Assembly: GCA_015060925.1 (NCBI GenBank)
Contig: SUXM01000028.1
Span: 1 to 33,353 of the forward strand
Direction: 5' to 3'
Origin: Parabacteroides distasonis
GTDB lineage: Bacteria; Bacteroidota; Bacteroidia; Bacteroidales; Tannerellaceae
DNA length: 33,353 bases
Below are positions 9,600-14,355 of the stretch, piece by piece. The position numbers were made by a program, and so were the translations under genes. The first letter of the stretch is position 1. Each line of letters opens with the position of its first letter. The notes beneath the pieces are model-generated. The model had not been told where the DNA came from, made no database searches, and saw nothing but the letters and a program-made list of their open reading frames with translations.

Positions 9600-12494
9600 C
9601 TATAAGTAAGGTTGTTTACCACAAAGATCTTTAAACTGACAATAGGAACAAATCTTTTGTTTTTTGGTTTGGATAAAGGGAACCTCTTCACCAAAGATCT
9701 CATCCAAGCAATGTCTCAAACTGTCTTCAAAGTCGCCCCTATACTTTTCAAAATCCATGACTATCTCACTTTTTGTTCGATCGATCTTCTTATATATGTT
9801 TGGATCAAACGATGATTTGAATAGTTCTCGCATATAATAAATACCCGGTTGGATCTTTCTATTGCCTTTCTCTTGCTGATACATCCAAGCATACATGAAA
9901 ACCTGCATCACCGCTTTTGAACGAACTTTTTCTTCCCGATTAAAAAGATTCTCTATCGTCGTAAACTGAGATGTACCACTCCCGCTTTTGTAGTCAAGGA
10001 TACGGATTATACCGTTCACCTCATCTATTCGGTCAATATATCCTTTAAGCTGAACTTCTCTCTGGTCCGTCAGTTTAATGAGAGATTCCATTTTTTTCTC
10101 TGATTCAATATAATAGAAAGGAGTCAACTGATTATCTCGTTCCAATACCTTTCCCACATATTTGCGAATCATCTCTCCTATTAAAAAGTTCTGTCCGGAT
10201 AACGGTCGGACATTTTTCGTCTTCAAATAGACATCAGCAAAAGCAGATTCAATAGCGAAGGTAATCTTTTTGGTGTCTTTACGGACAAGCTTCAGCAAAT
10301 CAGCTGTTACCAATTGTCCACAGAAAGGTTTATACAATATCTCCATAACTTTATGGAGAATACTACCAAAAACATTACTTTCTATGATTTCATTCACCTC
10401 TTCTTCCTCTTTGATATCCTCCACCACCGAAAAATAAAACTTCAACGGACAATCCAAATAGGTATTCAACGCACTGGCTGAAATAGCCCGTCCCCCTCCT
10501 TTAAGGAAAGCAGCCAAACGGTCTATGACCTCTTCAGTCTTTTCCACCTGTAGTTCAGGAGTCTTTGATGACGACACATTATAAACCACCAACTTATTCT
10601 GAATAGGTACTTGATAATGATAAAGCAATTGATATACAAACCGACTAACTTCTCCTGTTTGCAAACCATTGTTTCTTGTATCGTAAAGCATACAGACATG
10701 GCTTGCCCGATGAATCAATCTATAAAAATGGTAAGCCCATACACTATCTTGATGTTCATAGGTCGGTAAACCAAAACCACGACGGAGATTATAAGGGATA
10801 AACGAATTAGCGGCTTTCCTTAACGGAAAGACACCTTCATTCATAGACAGGATAATCAAACGGTCAAAATCCAATGCCCGTGTCTCCAAAACCCCCATGA
10901 TCTGTAAACCGGAAAGCGGTTCCCCTTGAAACGGGATAGTGATAGTGTCTGTCACTCGCTTCAAAAGACGGAAATAAGTATCAATACGCATTTCCACATT
11001 TGCCACCTTCATCACCTCCTTCATCCGATTGACTATTGTAAAATAATGAAAGATAAACTCCTGTTCCAAATCATGGATACGAAGTGTTGCCTCATCATCT
11101 TTCTCTTCTGCCTGTTCAGTCATCATACGGTTCAATTCCTGTAAGACATGAATCAAATAATCGGAGAAAGCCACTGCCTCTGTTACCGGTTTAAACAATA
11201 CAGAAAACAAAGAAGTCCGGTTCAAATCATCATACGATATATATACCCTATTGTTCTCCGTTATATTTTTGATCAAGGTAGCTACCATTTCCGGGGCAGT
11301 GACGGAAATATAACGATGGTTCAAAATGGGTAAAACATCACGAAAATAGAATACAGGTTGGCGATCAACATACCGTACATTCTTTTGTAAAGCCAAAATA
11401 TACTCCATCAAAGAAGCTACCGGCGTACCGGCTAAAGGATACCCCATCGTCACGTTAATATGCTGGATCTGTTCAGGTATGGCATTCAATACAGGTATTA
11501 AAAGATTTTCATCCGGAAGAATGACAGCCGTACGCAAAGCCTTTTCAGGGTTCATACCATCCCCTTTGCACCAATCATCCAACAGATGATAGACCTGTTT
11601 AGCCTGACCGATACCTGACGGGATACCTATAACTTCCATCTGAGGTTCATCCTTTATTGCTTCTTCTTCAAATGGTAGTTTCATTTGTGAAGGGAACAGT
11701 TGCAAATTTCGTCTGACAAAATAGGACGCCCTGTTATCTGAATCAATTACTTTCGGAGATTCATAATCCCAATAAAAGTCAGCAATACCTCTTTTTTTCA
11801 ACTGGATAAGAAAACGTTCCTCTGCTACTGATAAGGCATTCAACCCCACAAATACAATCTTCTCATAAGGCAGTTTACAAGATGCCTCTTTTTCCAATTG
11901 TTCAACCACCTCACGAAAGATCATCCCCTCATATCCACTATTTTCACTCCTCAAAGACTCACGCAGATCTTGATACAGGTCATACAATATCTGCCATATC
12001 GCCAAAAATTCGGTTTGGTTCGGACTATCTCCTTTCGGATAAAAAGAAGACCAGAACGAACGAATGGCCGCCACCTGCTCCGGTGTCAAGAAACTAAAGT
12101 CATCCTCTATCTCACGTAAATCAGTTACATTCCTAAAAAGCATACGGGCGTCTGCCATGTACTTATCCACATCATCGAAATCATTCAACAACATTTCTCC
12201 CCAGTAAAGAAACTCATCAAATGTCTCAGCAGAACCGCTATGACATATATACATATCATATAGTTTAAATAACATGCTGATACGATCCGCCGGTTGCTTT
12301 CCACTAAGTTGCACAAACAGGTCGTTGATGGTTAATACCGTAGGAGAAAATATCGGTTTATCTGAGATCTCAGACAAATACTTTTGAAAAAATAATCCGG
12401 CACGACGATTGGGAAAAACAAATGCCAACCGATTAATATCAGCCCCATAAGTAGAATAAAAGAGTGATGCGACTTTATATAAAAAAGGCTTCAT
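9600..12494 (-). CDS. AddB-like PD-(D/E)XK nuclease with Fe-S cluster
   Basis: A 964-residue protein resembling the AddB/RexB subunit of helicase-nuclease complexes that process DNA ends for recombination. The C-terminal nuclease domain has ILDYKSG (D834, K836) and the AddB-type iron-sulphur staple of C682 plus C949/C952/C958 (CSYCQFKDLC). The N-terminal region keeps a helicase-like layout, but where AddB has a Walker A P-loop it reads FPNRRAG (27-33), so ATP binding there is doubtful. No AddA partner lies in the window. It is transcribed alone from its own -7 box at 12538-12545 and ends at the terminator shared with the reductase gene. Two repeated small units lie upstream in the same orientation. 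Confidence 0.85.
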   Translation of the reverse strand: MKPFLYKVASLFYSTYGADINRLAFVFPNRRAGLFFQKYLSEISDKPIFSPTVLTINDLFVQLSGKQPADRISMLFKLYDMYICHSGSAETFDEFLYWGEMLLNDFDDVDKYMADARMLFRNVTDLREIEDDFSFLTPEQVAAIRSFWSSFYPKGDSPNQTEFLAIWQILYDLYQDLRESLRSENSGYEGMIFREVVEQLEKEASCKLPYEKIVFVGLNALSVAEERFLIQLKKRGIADFYWDYESPKVIDSDNRASYFVRRNLQLFPSQMKLPFEEEAIKDEPQMEVIGIPSGIGQAKQVYHLLDDWCKGDGMNPEKALRTAVILPDENLLIPVLNAIPEQIQHINVTMGYPLAGTPVASLMEYILALQKNVRYVDRQPVFYFRDVLPILNHRYISVTAPEMVATLIKNITENNRVYISYDDLNRTSLFSVLFKPVTEAVAFSDYLIHVLQELNRMMTEQAEEKDDEATLRIHDLEQEFIFHYFTIVNRMKEVMKVANVEMRIDTYFRLLKRVTDTITIPFQGEPLSGLQIMGVLETRALDFDRLIILSMNEGVFPLRKAANSFIPYNLRRGFGLPTYEHQDSVWAYHFYRLIHRASHVCMLYDTRNNGLQTGEVSRFVYQLLYHYQVPIQNKLVVYNVSSSKTPELQVEKTEEVIDRLAAFLKGGGRAISASALNTYLDCPLKFYFSVVEDIKEEEEVNEIIESNVFGSILHKVMEILYKPFCGQLVTADLLKLVRKDTKKITFAIESAFADVYLKTKNVRPLSGQNFLIGEMIRKYVGKVLERDNQLTPFYYIESEKKMESLIKLTDQREVQLKGYIDRIDEVNGIIRILDYKSGSGTSQFTTIENLFNREEKVRSKAVMQVFMYAWMYQQEKGNRKIQPGIYYMRELFKSSFDPNIYKKIDRTKSEIVMDFEKYRGDFEDSLRHCLDEIFGEEVPFIQTKKQKICSYCQFKDLCGKQPYL

Positions 12495-12537
12495 GCTTTA
12501 TGAATTAACAAAAACATATTTTTGAAAAAGTGAAAGG

Positions 12538-12545
12538 CAAAGATA
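12538..12545 (-). promoter_or_regulatory. -7 box of the AddB-like gene
   Basis: The minus strand reads TATCTTTG here, 43 nt before the ATG that ends at 12494. No clear -33 TTG is present. It separates the nuclease transcript from the repeated units upstream. Confidence 0.6.
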
Positions 12546-12598
12546 CTTAAGATTCCAGTTATTCAGAATAATATTTTTAATTATCTATTAAAAGGATA

Positions 12599-12668
12599 AA
12601 AAAAAAGGCCATCTTCACAGACAGCCAATCTTCATTGTTAACCTTAAATCTAATACCATGAAAAACAC
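12599..12668 (-). ncRNA. Candidate small RNA or leader unit A
   Basis: On the minus strand transcription from TATATTTG (12673-12680) should begin near 12668. The product, about 70 nt, ends in a 7-bp hairpin with two G-U pairs (12620-12626 with 12607-12613, 6-nt loop) followed by eight or nine T. It contains a 14-codon frame (12659 to 12615) encoding MVLDLRLTMKIGCL, whose TGA lies in the hairpin loop. It could be a free-standing sRNA or an attenuator-like leader. The AddB-like gene is about 100 nt downstream but has its own -7 box. Family unknown. Confidence 0.5.
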
Positions 12669-12672
12669 AGTG

Positions 12673-12704
12673 CAAATATAGGTACTTTATGTTATACAAC
12701 ATAA
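12673..12704 (-). promoter_or_regulatory. Promoter and candidate operator of unit A
   Basis: The minus strand has TATATTTG (complement of 12673-12680), an exact TAnnTTTG box. Six bases upstream lies TTATGTT-N4-AACATAA (12687-12704), palindromic except at the centre, in the position where a repressor or activator would act. Confidence 0.55.
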
Positions 12705-12829
12705 TCAAACAACAACAAAAATGCGTTTTATTAATATTATTTCACTAAAATGTCTATCTTGAAACATATTTTCACAAACTTACCCATAAATTCTTGATGA
12801 TTTTATCACAATCCAATATATCTTAAAAA

Positions 12830-12886
12830 TACATCCGATGTAAAAGCTATTTATGTCCGAGGTAAATCAAAATAAGTCCGAGGTAA
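12830..12886 (+). repeat. Second cluster of TTAnrTCCGAkGTAA-type 15-mers
   Basis: Three plus-strand copies lie at 12830-12843 (ACATCCGATGTAA core), 12851-12865 (TTATGTCCGAGGTAA) and 12872-12886 (ATAAGTCCGAGGTAA). They share the core TCCGAkGTAA with the cluster at 277-334. They sit between repeat copies A and B. Confidence 0.65.
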
Positions 12887-12963
12887 TTTTCACGACCAAC
12901 CAGACAAAAAATCAAAGAGGATGAAAAGAGAATCTTTTTTAAGAAAAGAATCCTATTTTAAGC

Positions 12964-13033
12964 AAAAAAAAGGCCATCTTCACAGACAGCCAATCTTCAT
13001 TGTTAACCTTAAATCTAATACCATGAAAAACAC
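12964..13033 (-). ncRNA. Candidate small RNA or leader unit B
   Basis: It has the same architecture as unit A: -7 box TATATTTG at 13038-13045 (minus), inferred start near 13033, the identical 14-codon frame (13024 to 12980), and a terminator hairpin at 12972-12991 followed by eight T. Conservation of promoter, body and terminator between the two copies supports a transcribed element rather than chance. Confidence 0.5.
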
Positions 13034-13037
13034 GATG

Positions 13038-13069
13038 CAAATATAGGCACTTTATGTTATATAACATAA
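13038..13069 (-). promoter_or_regulatory. Promoter and candidate operator of unit B
   Basis: TATATTTG (complement of 13038-13045) is preceded on the minus strand by a perfect 18-bp palindrome, TTATGTTATATAACATAA (13052-13069). Confidence 0.55.
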
Positions 13070-13109
13070 TTAGCAGACAAAAAAACACATTTAATTAACC
13101 TATTTTAAC

Positions 13110-13135
13110 TATTTTATGTTTTAAAACATAAAATA
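13110..13135. repeat. Third palindrome of TTATGTT-N4-AACATAA type
   Basis: A perfect 26-bp palindrome containing TTATGTT-TTAA-AACATAA at 13114-13131, the same arms as the operators of units A and B. No exact -7 box adjoins it at the spacing seen in A and B. It lies 140 bp upstream of the tdh promoter. The rest of the tdh upstream region (13136-13273) shows nothing else I can support. Confidence 0.7.
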
Positions 13136-13273
13136 TAGGTATTAAAATGCTCTATAGGGATAAATTGAAAAGATTTATGTCTTATTAGAAAGCCATCCAA
13201 ACAGACATAAAAAAATCTACGACAAATGATATTCAAAATATATATTTAAAGATGAAAATAAACGATTTGTTTG

Positions 13274-13281
13274 TATATTTG
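13274..13281 (+). promoter_or_regulatory. -7 box of tdh
   Basis: TATATTTG matches the Bacteroidetes -7 consensus and lies 48 nt before the tdh ATG. No good -33 TTG is seen at the usual distance. Confidence 0.65.
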
Positions 13282-13329
13282 CTTCTTGTATAGACAAGAT
13301 AAATATTTAACGTATATAATTAACAAGAA

Positions 13330-14355
13330 ATGAAAGCTTTAGTAAAAAAGGAAGCCCAGAAGGGTATTTGGATGGAAGACGTTTCTATTCCAGAGGTTGG
13401 TGTAAACGACGTCCTTATCAAAATTAAAAAAACAGCTATTTGTGGTACAGACTTGCATATCTACAAATGGGATGAATGGAGCCAAAAAACAATCAAGACT
13501 CCAATGACAATCGGTCATGAATATGTAGGTATCGTTGCAGAAGTTGGCCCGGGTGTTCGTAATATCAAGGTTGGTGACCGTGTAACAGGCGAAGGCCATA
13601 TCGCTTGTGGACATTGCCGTAACTGTCGCCGTGGTTTGCAACACATCTGTGAAAACAGTATCGGTGTAGGCGTAAACCGTGATGGTGCTTTTGCTGAATA
13701 TCTTTGTATTCCGGAATCCAATGTTGTAAAACTTGACGACCGTATCTCTGATGATATGGCTGCTATCATGGATCCATTCGGTAATGCAACCCATACAGCT
13801 CTTTCTTTCCCGCTTCTTGGTGAAGACGTACTTATCACTGGTGCCGGTTTGATCGGAACAATGGCTACAGCCATCGCCCGTTTTGCCGGTGCTAAAAACG
13901 TTGTAGTAACAGACTTAAGTGACTACCGTTTGGATATTGCCAAGAAAATGGGTGCTACTATAACTGTCAATGCGGCTAAAGGTGAAACAGTAGCCGGAGC
14001 AATGGAAAAACTTAATATGCGTGGTTTTGACGTTGGTTTGGAAATGTCTGGTTCTCCTATCGCATTCCGTGATATGGTTGCTAACATGTATAATGGTTCT
14101 AAAATTGCCCAATTAGGAATCTTACCTCCTACTACAACTGTTGATTGGAGTGAAATCATCTTCAAGGCTCTAACAATCAAAGGTATCTATGGTCGTGAAA
14201 TGTGGGAAACATGGTACAAGATGCAACAGATGTTGATTTCCGGTCTTGACCTTTCTCCGGTTATCACTCACCACTTCCCTATCGCTGAATTCCAGCAAGG
14301 TTTCGACGTGATGGAGTCCGGTCAATGTGGTAAAGTTATCCTTGATTGGGAATAA
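13330..14355 (+). CDS. tdh: L-threonine 3-dehydrogenase
   Basis: A zinc-dependent medium-chain dehydrogenase that oxidises L-threonine with NAD+ to 2-amino-3-ketobutyrate in the cytoplasm. At 341 residues it has the standard length. Visible residues are the catalytic zinc ligands C38, H63 and E64 ([12 protein letters not shown]), the structural zinc cysteines C93, C96, C99 and C107, and the Rossmann motif GAGLIG near 173-178 with an acidic residue after strand 2, as expected for NAD. The next gene, kbl, encodes the following pathway step and starts 68 nt downstream, so the two form an operon. The -7 box is at 13274-13281. Confidence 0.97.

Follow-up and report, generated by a model that had tools for sequence, protein, structure and literature searches.

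The FopS small RNAs (sRNAs) have been described in Bacteroides thetaiotaomicron, where 14 of them associate with RbpB. They are transcripts of ca. 65 to 70 nt that pair near the start codon of SusC-like importer mRNAs, the translation of which is repressed (PMC11697453). The abstract of that article places importer repression under substrate limitation, and its text describes the induction of FopS by bile salts, possibly via a transcriptional regulator left unnamed (PMC11697453, 2025). In the same species, FopS is ca. 3-fold lower on a high-mannose glycan than on glucose.

Cur (BT4338, Crp) is a regulator of the CRP family, reported both to activate and to repress (PMC3878776, PMC6989115). Its consensus, wwwTATGTTnTAnAACATAwww, was predicted in PMC3878776 and supported in PMC6989115 by deletion of the fusA2 site, which abolished BT4338 binding there. 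Expression of the Cur regulon shifts most on mucin and in starvation, and fusA2 rises. There is one precedent for an sRNA under Cur, MasB, which differs from the case presented here in being a single sRNA, activated and with another target (PMC10994844), and the sRNAs BTnc140, BTnc195 and BTnc364 have been located near BT4338 sites (PMC10294740). FopS is not among the Cur targets named in main-text passages of PMC3878776 and PMC6989115, and the main text of PMC11697453 mentions no palindrome, inverted repeat, operator, Cur, BT4338 or CRP. A literature search that took in main texts and a minority of the subscription papers found no paper linking Cur and FopS.

Two tandem FopS genes in Parabacteroides distasonis

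We analyzed a stretch of 33,353 nucleotides from a P. distasonis assembly (contig SUXM01000028.1), hereinafter the window. The original prediction singled out a pair of 107-bp units, offset by 365 bp and with four differences, each made of a promoter box, ca. 70 nt and a hairpin followed by a T-run. A position-by-position comparison reproduced the pair exactly. The units (12599-12705 and 12964-13070) are arranged head-to-tail on the minus strand and differ at 12669, 12670, 12683 and 12697, all of them 5' of the RNA, while the 70 nt at 12599-12668 are identical in the second copy. In a repeat search the pair reached 122 nt (92% identity), with little in common beyond the stretch from promoter to terminator. 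Both units have the box TATATTTG, a -7 box of the sigmaABfr type that starts at -12 relative to the inferred transcription start site (TSS), which is the correct spacing, and then an eight-pair hairpin with a T-run. These hairpins are the only two terminator-like sites in 12500-13330 (shuffled sequences, 0.1 ± 0.3). The spacer separating both sRNA genes contains GTCCGAGGTAA twice, 21 bp apart (12855-12885).

A small-RNA gene of Bacteroidales type, with TAnnTTTG promoter and terminator, had been proposed, and both copies match end to end the Rfam covariance model RF04319 (BTncRNA_FopS), above its gathering cut-off of 56 bits (Table 1). The two units are thus new members, as predicted genes, of the known sRNA family FopS. 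With GibS (RF04182) they have the R1 seed in common, and their scores against that model (51.7 and 42.4 bits) are below its cut-off of 115. They resemble the FopS RNAs of B. thetaiotaomicron (PMC11697453) in 5' seed, length, sigmaABfr -7 box, terminator and presence in multiple copies; they differ in the seed base, a G at nt 12, and in the predicted Cur operator that lies on the core promoter.

Table 1. Coordinates of the annotated and predicted features of the two FopS units in the window
Feature	Position	Strand	Evidence
FopS sRNA gene, copy 1	12595..12668	-	RF04319, 76.8 bits, model positions 1-71; TSS inferred at 12668
Terminator hairpin, copy 1 (T-run after)	12607..12626	-	Terminator scan and fold
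-7 box TATATTTG, copy 1	12673..12680	-	Sequence; TA..TTTG near-invariant in the 155 aligned promoters listed
Predicted Cur operator, copy 1	12688..12703	.	0 mismatches to TATGTTN4AACATA; centre at -27.5, over the -33 region and spacer
FopS sRNA gene, copy 2	12962..13033	-	RF04319, 74.6 bits; TSS inferred at 13033
Terminator hairpin, copy 2 (T-run after)	12972..12991	-	Terminator scan and fold
-7 box TATATTTG, copy 2	13038..13045	-	Sequence
Predicted Cur operator, copy 2	13053..13068	.	0 mismatches; centre at -27.5
Second predicted Cur operator, copy 2	13115..13130	.	0 mismatches; centre at -89.5, 62 bp upstream of the first

Distribution and genomic neighborhood

The source genome (a 2.54-Mb assembly, 88% complete) has six matches to the FopS model, five of them above the cut-off, which points to several paralogues. 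The comparison with Rfam and related genomes suggested along with the original prediction came out in its favor: within the taxonomic family, 122 of 123 genomes (source genome counted) have the RNA with its terminator, and the -7 box, TA..TTTG, is near-invariant across the 155 aligned FopS promoters listed. Exact 37-nt matches include, among the matches listed, records titled Prevotella, Muribaculaceae, Paludibacteraceae, Dysgonomonas, Odoribacter, Barnesiella, Tannerella and others; the range of FopS appears to be wider than the emphasis on Bacteroidaceae in the text of PMC11697453. One exact match lies in a record titled Pseudoflavonifractor (L172), perhaps a mislabelled or misbinned MAG. 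Tandem arrays of three evenly spaced FopS copies also occur, at ca. 657 bp (L205, 3981-5296) and at 244 bp (G174:C2:2379040-2379553). No exact match to the 31-nt FopS core was found in viral contigs, and a phage collection gave six partial matches. Bacteroides phage BX-TP2 (L380, ca. position 971) carries a FopS copy, with no Cur site at ≤2 mismatches upstream.

The units had been placed upstream of an AddB-like gene. The reading frame at 9600-12494 (minus strand) has a PD-(D/E)XK nuclease domain, compatible with that name, although such a domain is no proof of AddB. The same order, AddB-like gene-FopS-FopS, was found in 2 of 12 same-genus regions, with spacings of 489 and 1477 bp and both units kept, which probably makes the pair older than the source genome. 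This recurrence could be taken as a sign that the units serve the AddB-like gene as leaders or attenuators and are not sRNA genes, all the more as they read toward that gene, which starts ca. 100 bp past copy 1. We consider this very improbable: the terminators precede the gene, and no attenuator is needed since the known FopS are free-standing sRNAs (PMC11697453) and FopS copies elsewhere adjoin other, unrelated genes. That the units are remnants of a repeated mobile element is extremely improbable. FopS is indeed multicopy and dispersed, with a copy even in a phage, but the similarity of the window copies practically stops at promoter and terminator, and beside addB both units persist at spacings other than the 365 bp of the window.

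Putative Cur operators and their candidate regulator

The first reading overlooked three palindromes upstream of the two RNAs (Table 1). All have zero mismatches to TATGTTN4AACATA, fit the Cur/BT4338 consensus and look like Cur operators. The four differences between the copies avoid both palindrome arms. In the source genome there are 17 exact ATGTTN4AACAT sites, against 2 for the reversed pattern, and 6 of the 17 are within ca. 100 bp upstream of FopS genes; the FopS copies C22 and C30 are without palindrome. The stricter TATGYTN4AACATAAA gave 168 strand matches, versus 21 for the control, summed over 38 same-genus genomes, a count in which perfect palindromes enter twice. One of these genomes (G059) has 20 strict-motif strand matches at ca. 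14 places, nine of them at -68.5 from a -7 box, as if the operator had spread with a repeated element (L269, L302, L305-L309, L311, L312). At five same-genus loci (L250, L251, L261, L330, L336), gapA is preceded by a Cur-type palindrome at -59.5 to -62.5, which makes this glycolysis gene a candidate for a conserved target of Cur. The published 22-bp fusA2 site was tried as a ruler of activator distance and abandoned, with no match at ≤2 mismatches in the 38 genomes.

A single HTH_Crp_2 protein was found in the source genome (88% complete). Its orthologue is present in 115 of 121 same-family genomes, including 61 of 61 of high quality, and its closest solved relative is the Crp/Fnr structure 2gau. 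Among 30 loci searched on both strands, 26 have an imperfect site (ATGTTATATARCAG-like, 2 to 3 mismatches out of 12) just past the inferred start of the orthologue's own promoter, and the BT4338 promoter is likewise reported to hold such a site (PMC3878776, PMC6989115). We take this protein for a putative Cur by its uniqueness and its own-promoter site. What is shared with the published regulon is then the palindrome consensus, together with a regulator of the CRP family whose own promoter holds a related site.

A different regulator, for example a bile-responsive one, might read the palindrome. The bile-salt induction of FopS, with the unnamed regulator proposed for it (PMC11697453), speaks for this and is unexplained by Cur control. 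We regard it as quite unlikely because the motif is the very Cur consensus supported at fusA2 (PMC3878776, PMC6989115) and the genome, at 88% completeness, has the one HTH_Crp_2 protein. BlaI was also considered as the reader and rejected, one exact site being found upstream of blaI/blaR1 in the source genome and none at the other 29 of the 30 blaI-type loci, within the stretches read; many of these loci in relatives carry a different dyad. In many relatives, an ACGA-TCGT dyad adjoins the -7 box of the blaI-type promoter (L075-L097).

Returning to Cur as the candidate reader, the link to FopS is not universal. The palindrome was absent from the FopS promoters read from all 8 titled Prevotella-type genomes, 6 of which have a Cur orthologue, and therefore Cur is not needed for FopS. 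The presence of Cur was also tried as a predictor of the site and discarded: of the 49 genomes with FopS that were tested, 45 have the orthologue, which does not discriminate since it occurs with or without a site in the FopS promoter.

Predicted operator positions across FopS promoters

We compared 155 distinct FopS promoters (159 rows minus duplicates; copies with <130 nt upstream were skipped), most of which are matches listed in a collection scan restricted to the G seed. Mismatches were counted over the 12 arm positions of TATGTTN4AACATA. Among the 155 promoters listed, the 16-mer was present in 33 at zero mismatches, in 83 at ≤1 and in 104 at ≤2; at the same thresholds, the reversed pattern gave 0, 0 and 8 of 155, and shuffles 1, 6 and 92 of 3100. 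With ≤2 mismatches, the site is near -28 in 81 promoters listed and near -60 in 19 (hereinafter near and mid sites), elsewhere in 4 and missing in 51. A second site is found 61 to 63 bp farther upstream in 16 of the 81 near-site promoters, a spacing of ca. six helical turns. The TTTG box at -33 is intact in 17 of 19 mid-site promoters versus 2 of 81 near-site ones, a loss partly forced, as the palindrome occupies that place. None of the 155 listed has both near and mid sites, and this lack is not forced. It should be noted that the Fisher values overstate independence, since the promoters share ancestry. A conserved GTTAAA...GTTAA block, perhaps an UP element, is found at -75 to -60 of FopS promoters. 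The FopS of the GTGG type have no site in 32 of 39 promoters. The idea that all of them are wired for activation was dropped, with a site in only 7 of the 39 distinct promoters (6 at -59.5 and 1 at -31.5).

Seed base and predicted operator position in Bacteroides

For Bacteroides (in the GTDB sense, the genus of Bacteroides faecalis), 68 distinct promoters related by descent were compared. Of the regions behind them, 40 were chosen by hand, with the seed base as the main criterion; the set excludes 2 copies too close to the end of a sequence, and 2 duplicates. The site is present in 45 of the 68, a partly hand-picked set in which seed base 12 tracks the position of the operator: G-seed promoters have 23 near sites, 3 mid sites and 6 without, and A-seed promoters 0, 19 and 17, respectively. 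Named records mostly agree. A site ca. 60 bp upstream (≤2 mismatches) was found in the Bacteroides ovatus copy and in five of six A-seed copies of Bacteroides finegoldii, the sixth having none, and the site near -28 in both P. distasonis copies and in one G-seed copy of B. finegoldii. One of two Phocaeicola copies in a single stretch has a site. The base that differs adjoins the CAU involved in pairing with the start codons of targets. A tentative extension, which we would call possible but doubtful, is that within one cell Cur acts in opposite senses on two FopS subfamilies, turning the G-seed one (-28) off and the A-seed one (-60.5) on at sugar exhaustion.

We also looked for seed targets in the genome of origin with CTAATACCATGAAAAA (≤2 mismatches), which gave 13 matches versus 6 for the control. 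Four of the 13 are the FopS genes themselves and few of the other nine resemble starts of long reading frames, and for this reason no targets are claimed.

Sign of the predicted control

Taken together, the two paralogous FopS genes are likely to be under the control of Cur, which would probably act on the window copies as a repressor. From the family assignment, the operator match, its conservation and its position we infer Cur binding, repression and targets in the source organism. Each gene would produce an RNA of ca. 70 nt, the 5' part of which would pair around the start codon of SusC-type mRNAs, blocking their translation; target pairing and the opposition of RbpB are carried over from B. 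thetaiotaomicron. Cur would bind the palindrome that spans the spacer and the -33 region, as well as the site 62 bp upstream in copy 2, and should shut the promoter during carbon limitation. FopS would therefore be produced while simple sugar abounds, and glycan importers would be held down.

The sign of this control is read from the place of the predicted operator. A total of 57 non-FopS sites were picked by hand, mainly from the TATGYTN4AACATAAA matches in the 38 same-genus genomes; a -7 box puts 26 of them between -50 and -69 and another 5 between -20 and -35. The -28 position is therefore unusual. The location at -50 to -69 fits activation, and at -28, judging by position, the window copies look repressed.

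Alternatively, Cur could bind and activate FopS from both positions, with FopS rising in carbon limitation. We consider this unlikely, in spite of several points in its favor. The -60 layout, with the -33 box intact in nearly all the mid-site promoters listed, resembles that of class I activation and matches gapA. Cur activates another sRNA, MasB (PMC10994844), and the FopS abstract has importers repressed when substrates are limited (PMC11697453). However, glucose gives higher FopS levels than N-glycan in B. thetaiotaomicron. Besides, the palindrome at -28 covers the -33 region, and a CRP-family protein bound there is expected to block the polymerase.

Repression by Cur would also have a parallel in Escherichia coli, where CRP represses Spot 42. 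The likeness is in the predicted logic, a sugar regulator repressing an sRNA that represses catabolic genes, and it is an analogy only, as Spot 42 is an unrelated RNA and FopS is multicopy and has no Hfq.

FopS sRNAs restrain glycan importers in dominant gut bacteria, and a Cur operator in their promoter would tie the family to the response of the cell to sugar supply. Cur is a named candidate, with an exact site, for an sRNA family whose regulator had been reported as unknown. If true, this control joins two layers of carbon regulation of the Bacteroidales, with Cur acting on transcription and FopS/RbpB on translation, and, should the opposite wiring of the two subfamilies hold, a sugar regulator would swap one sRNA seed for another on sugar exhaustion.
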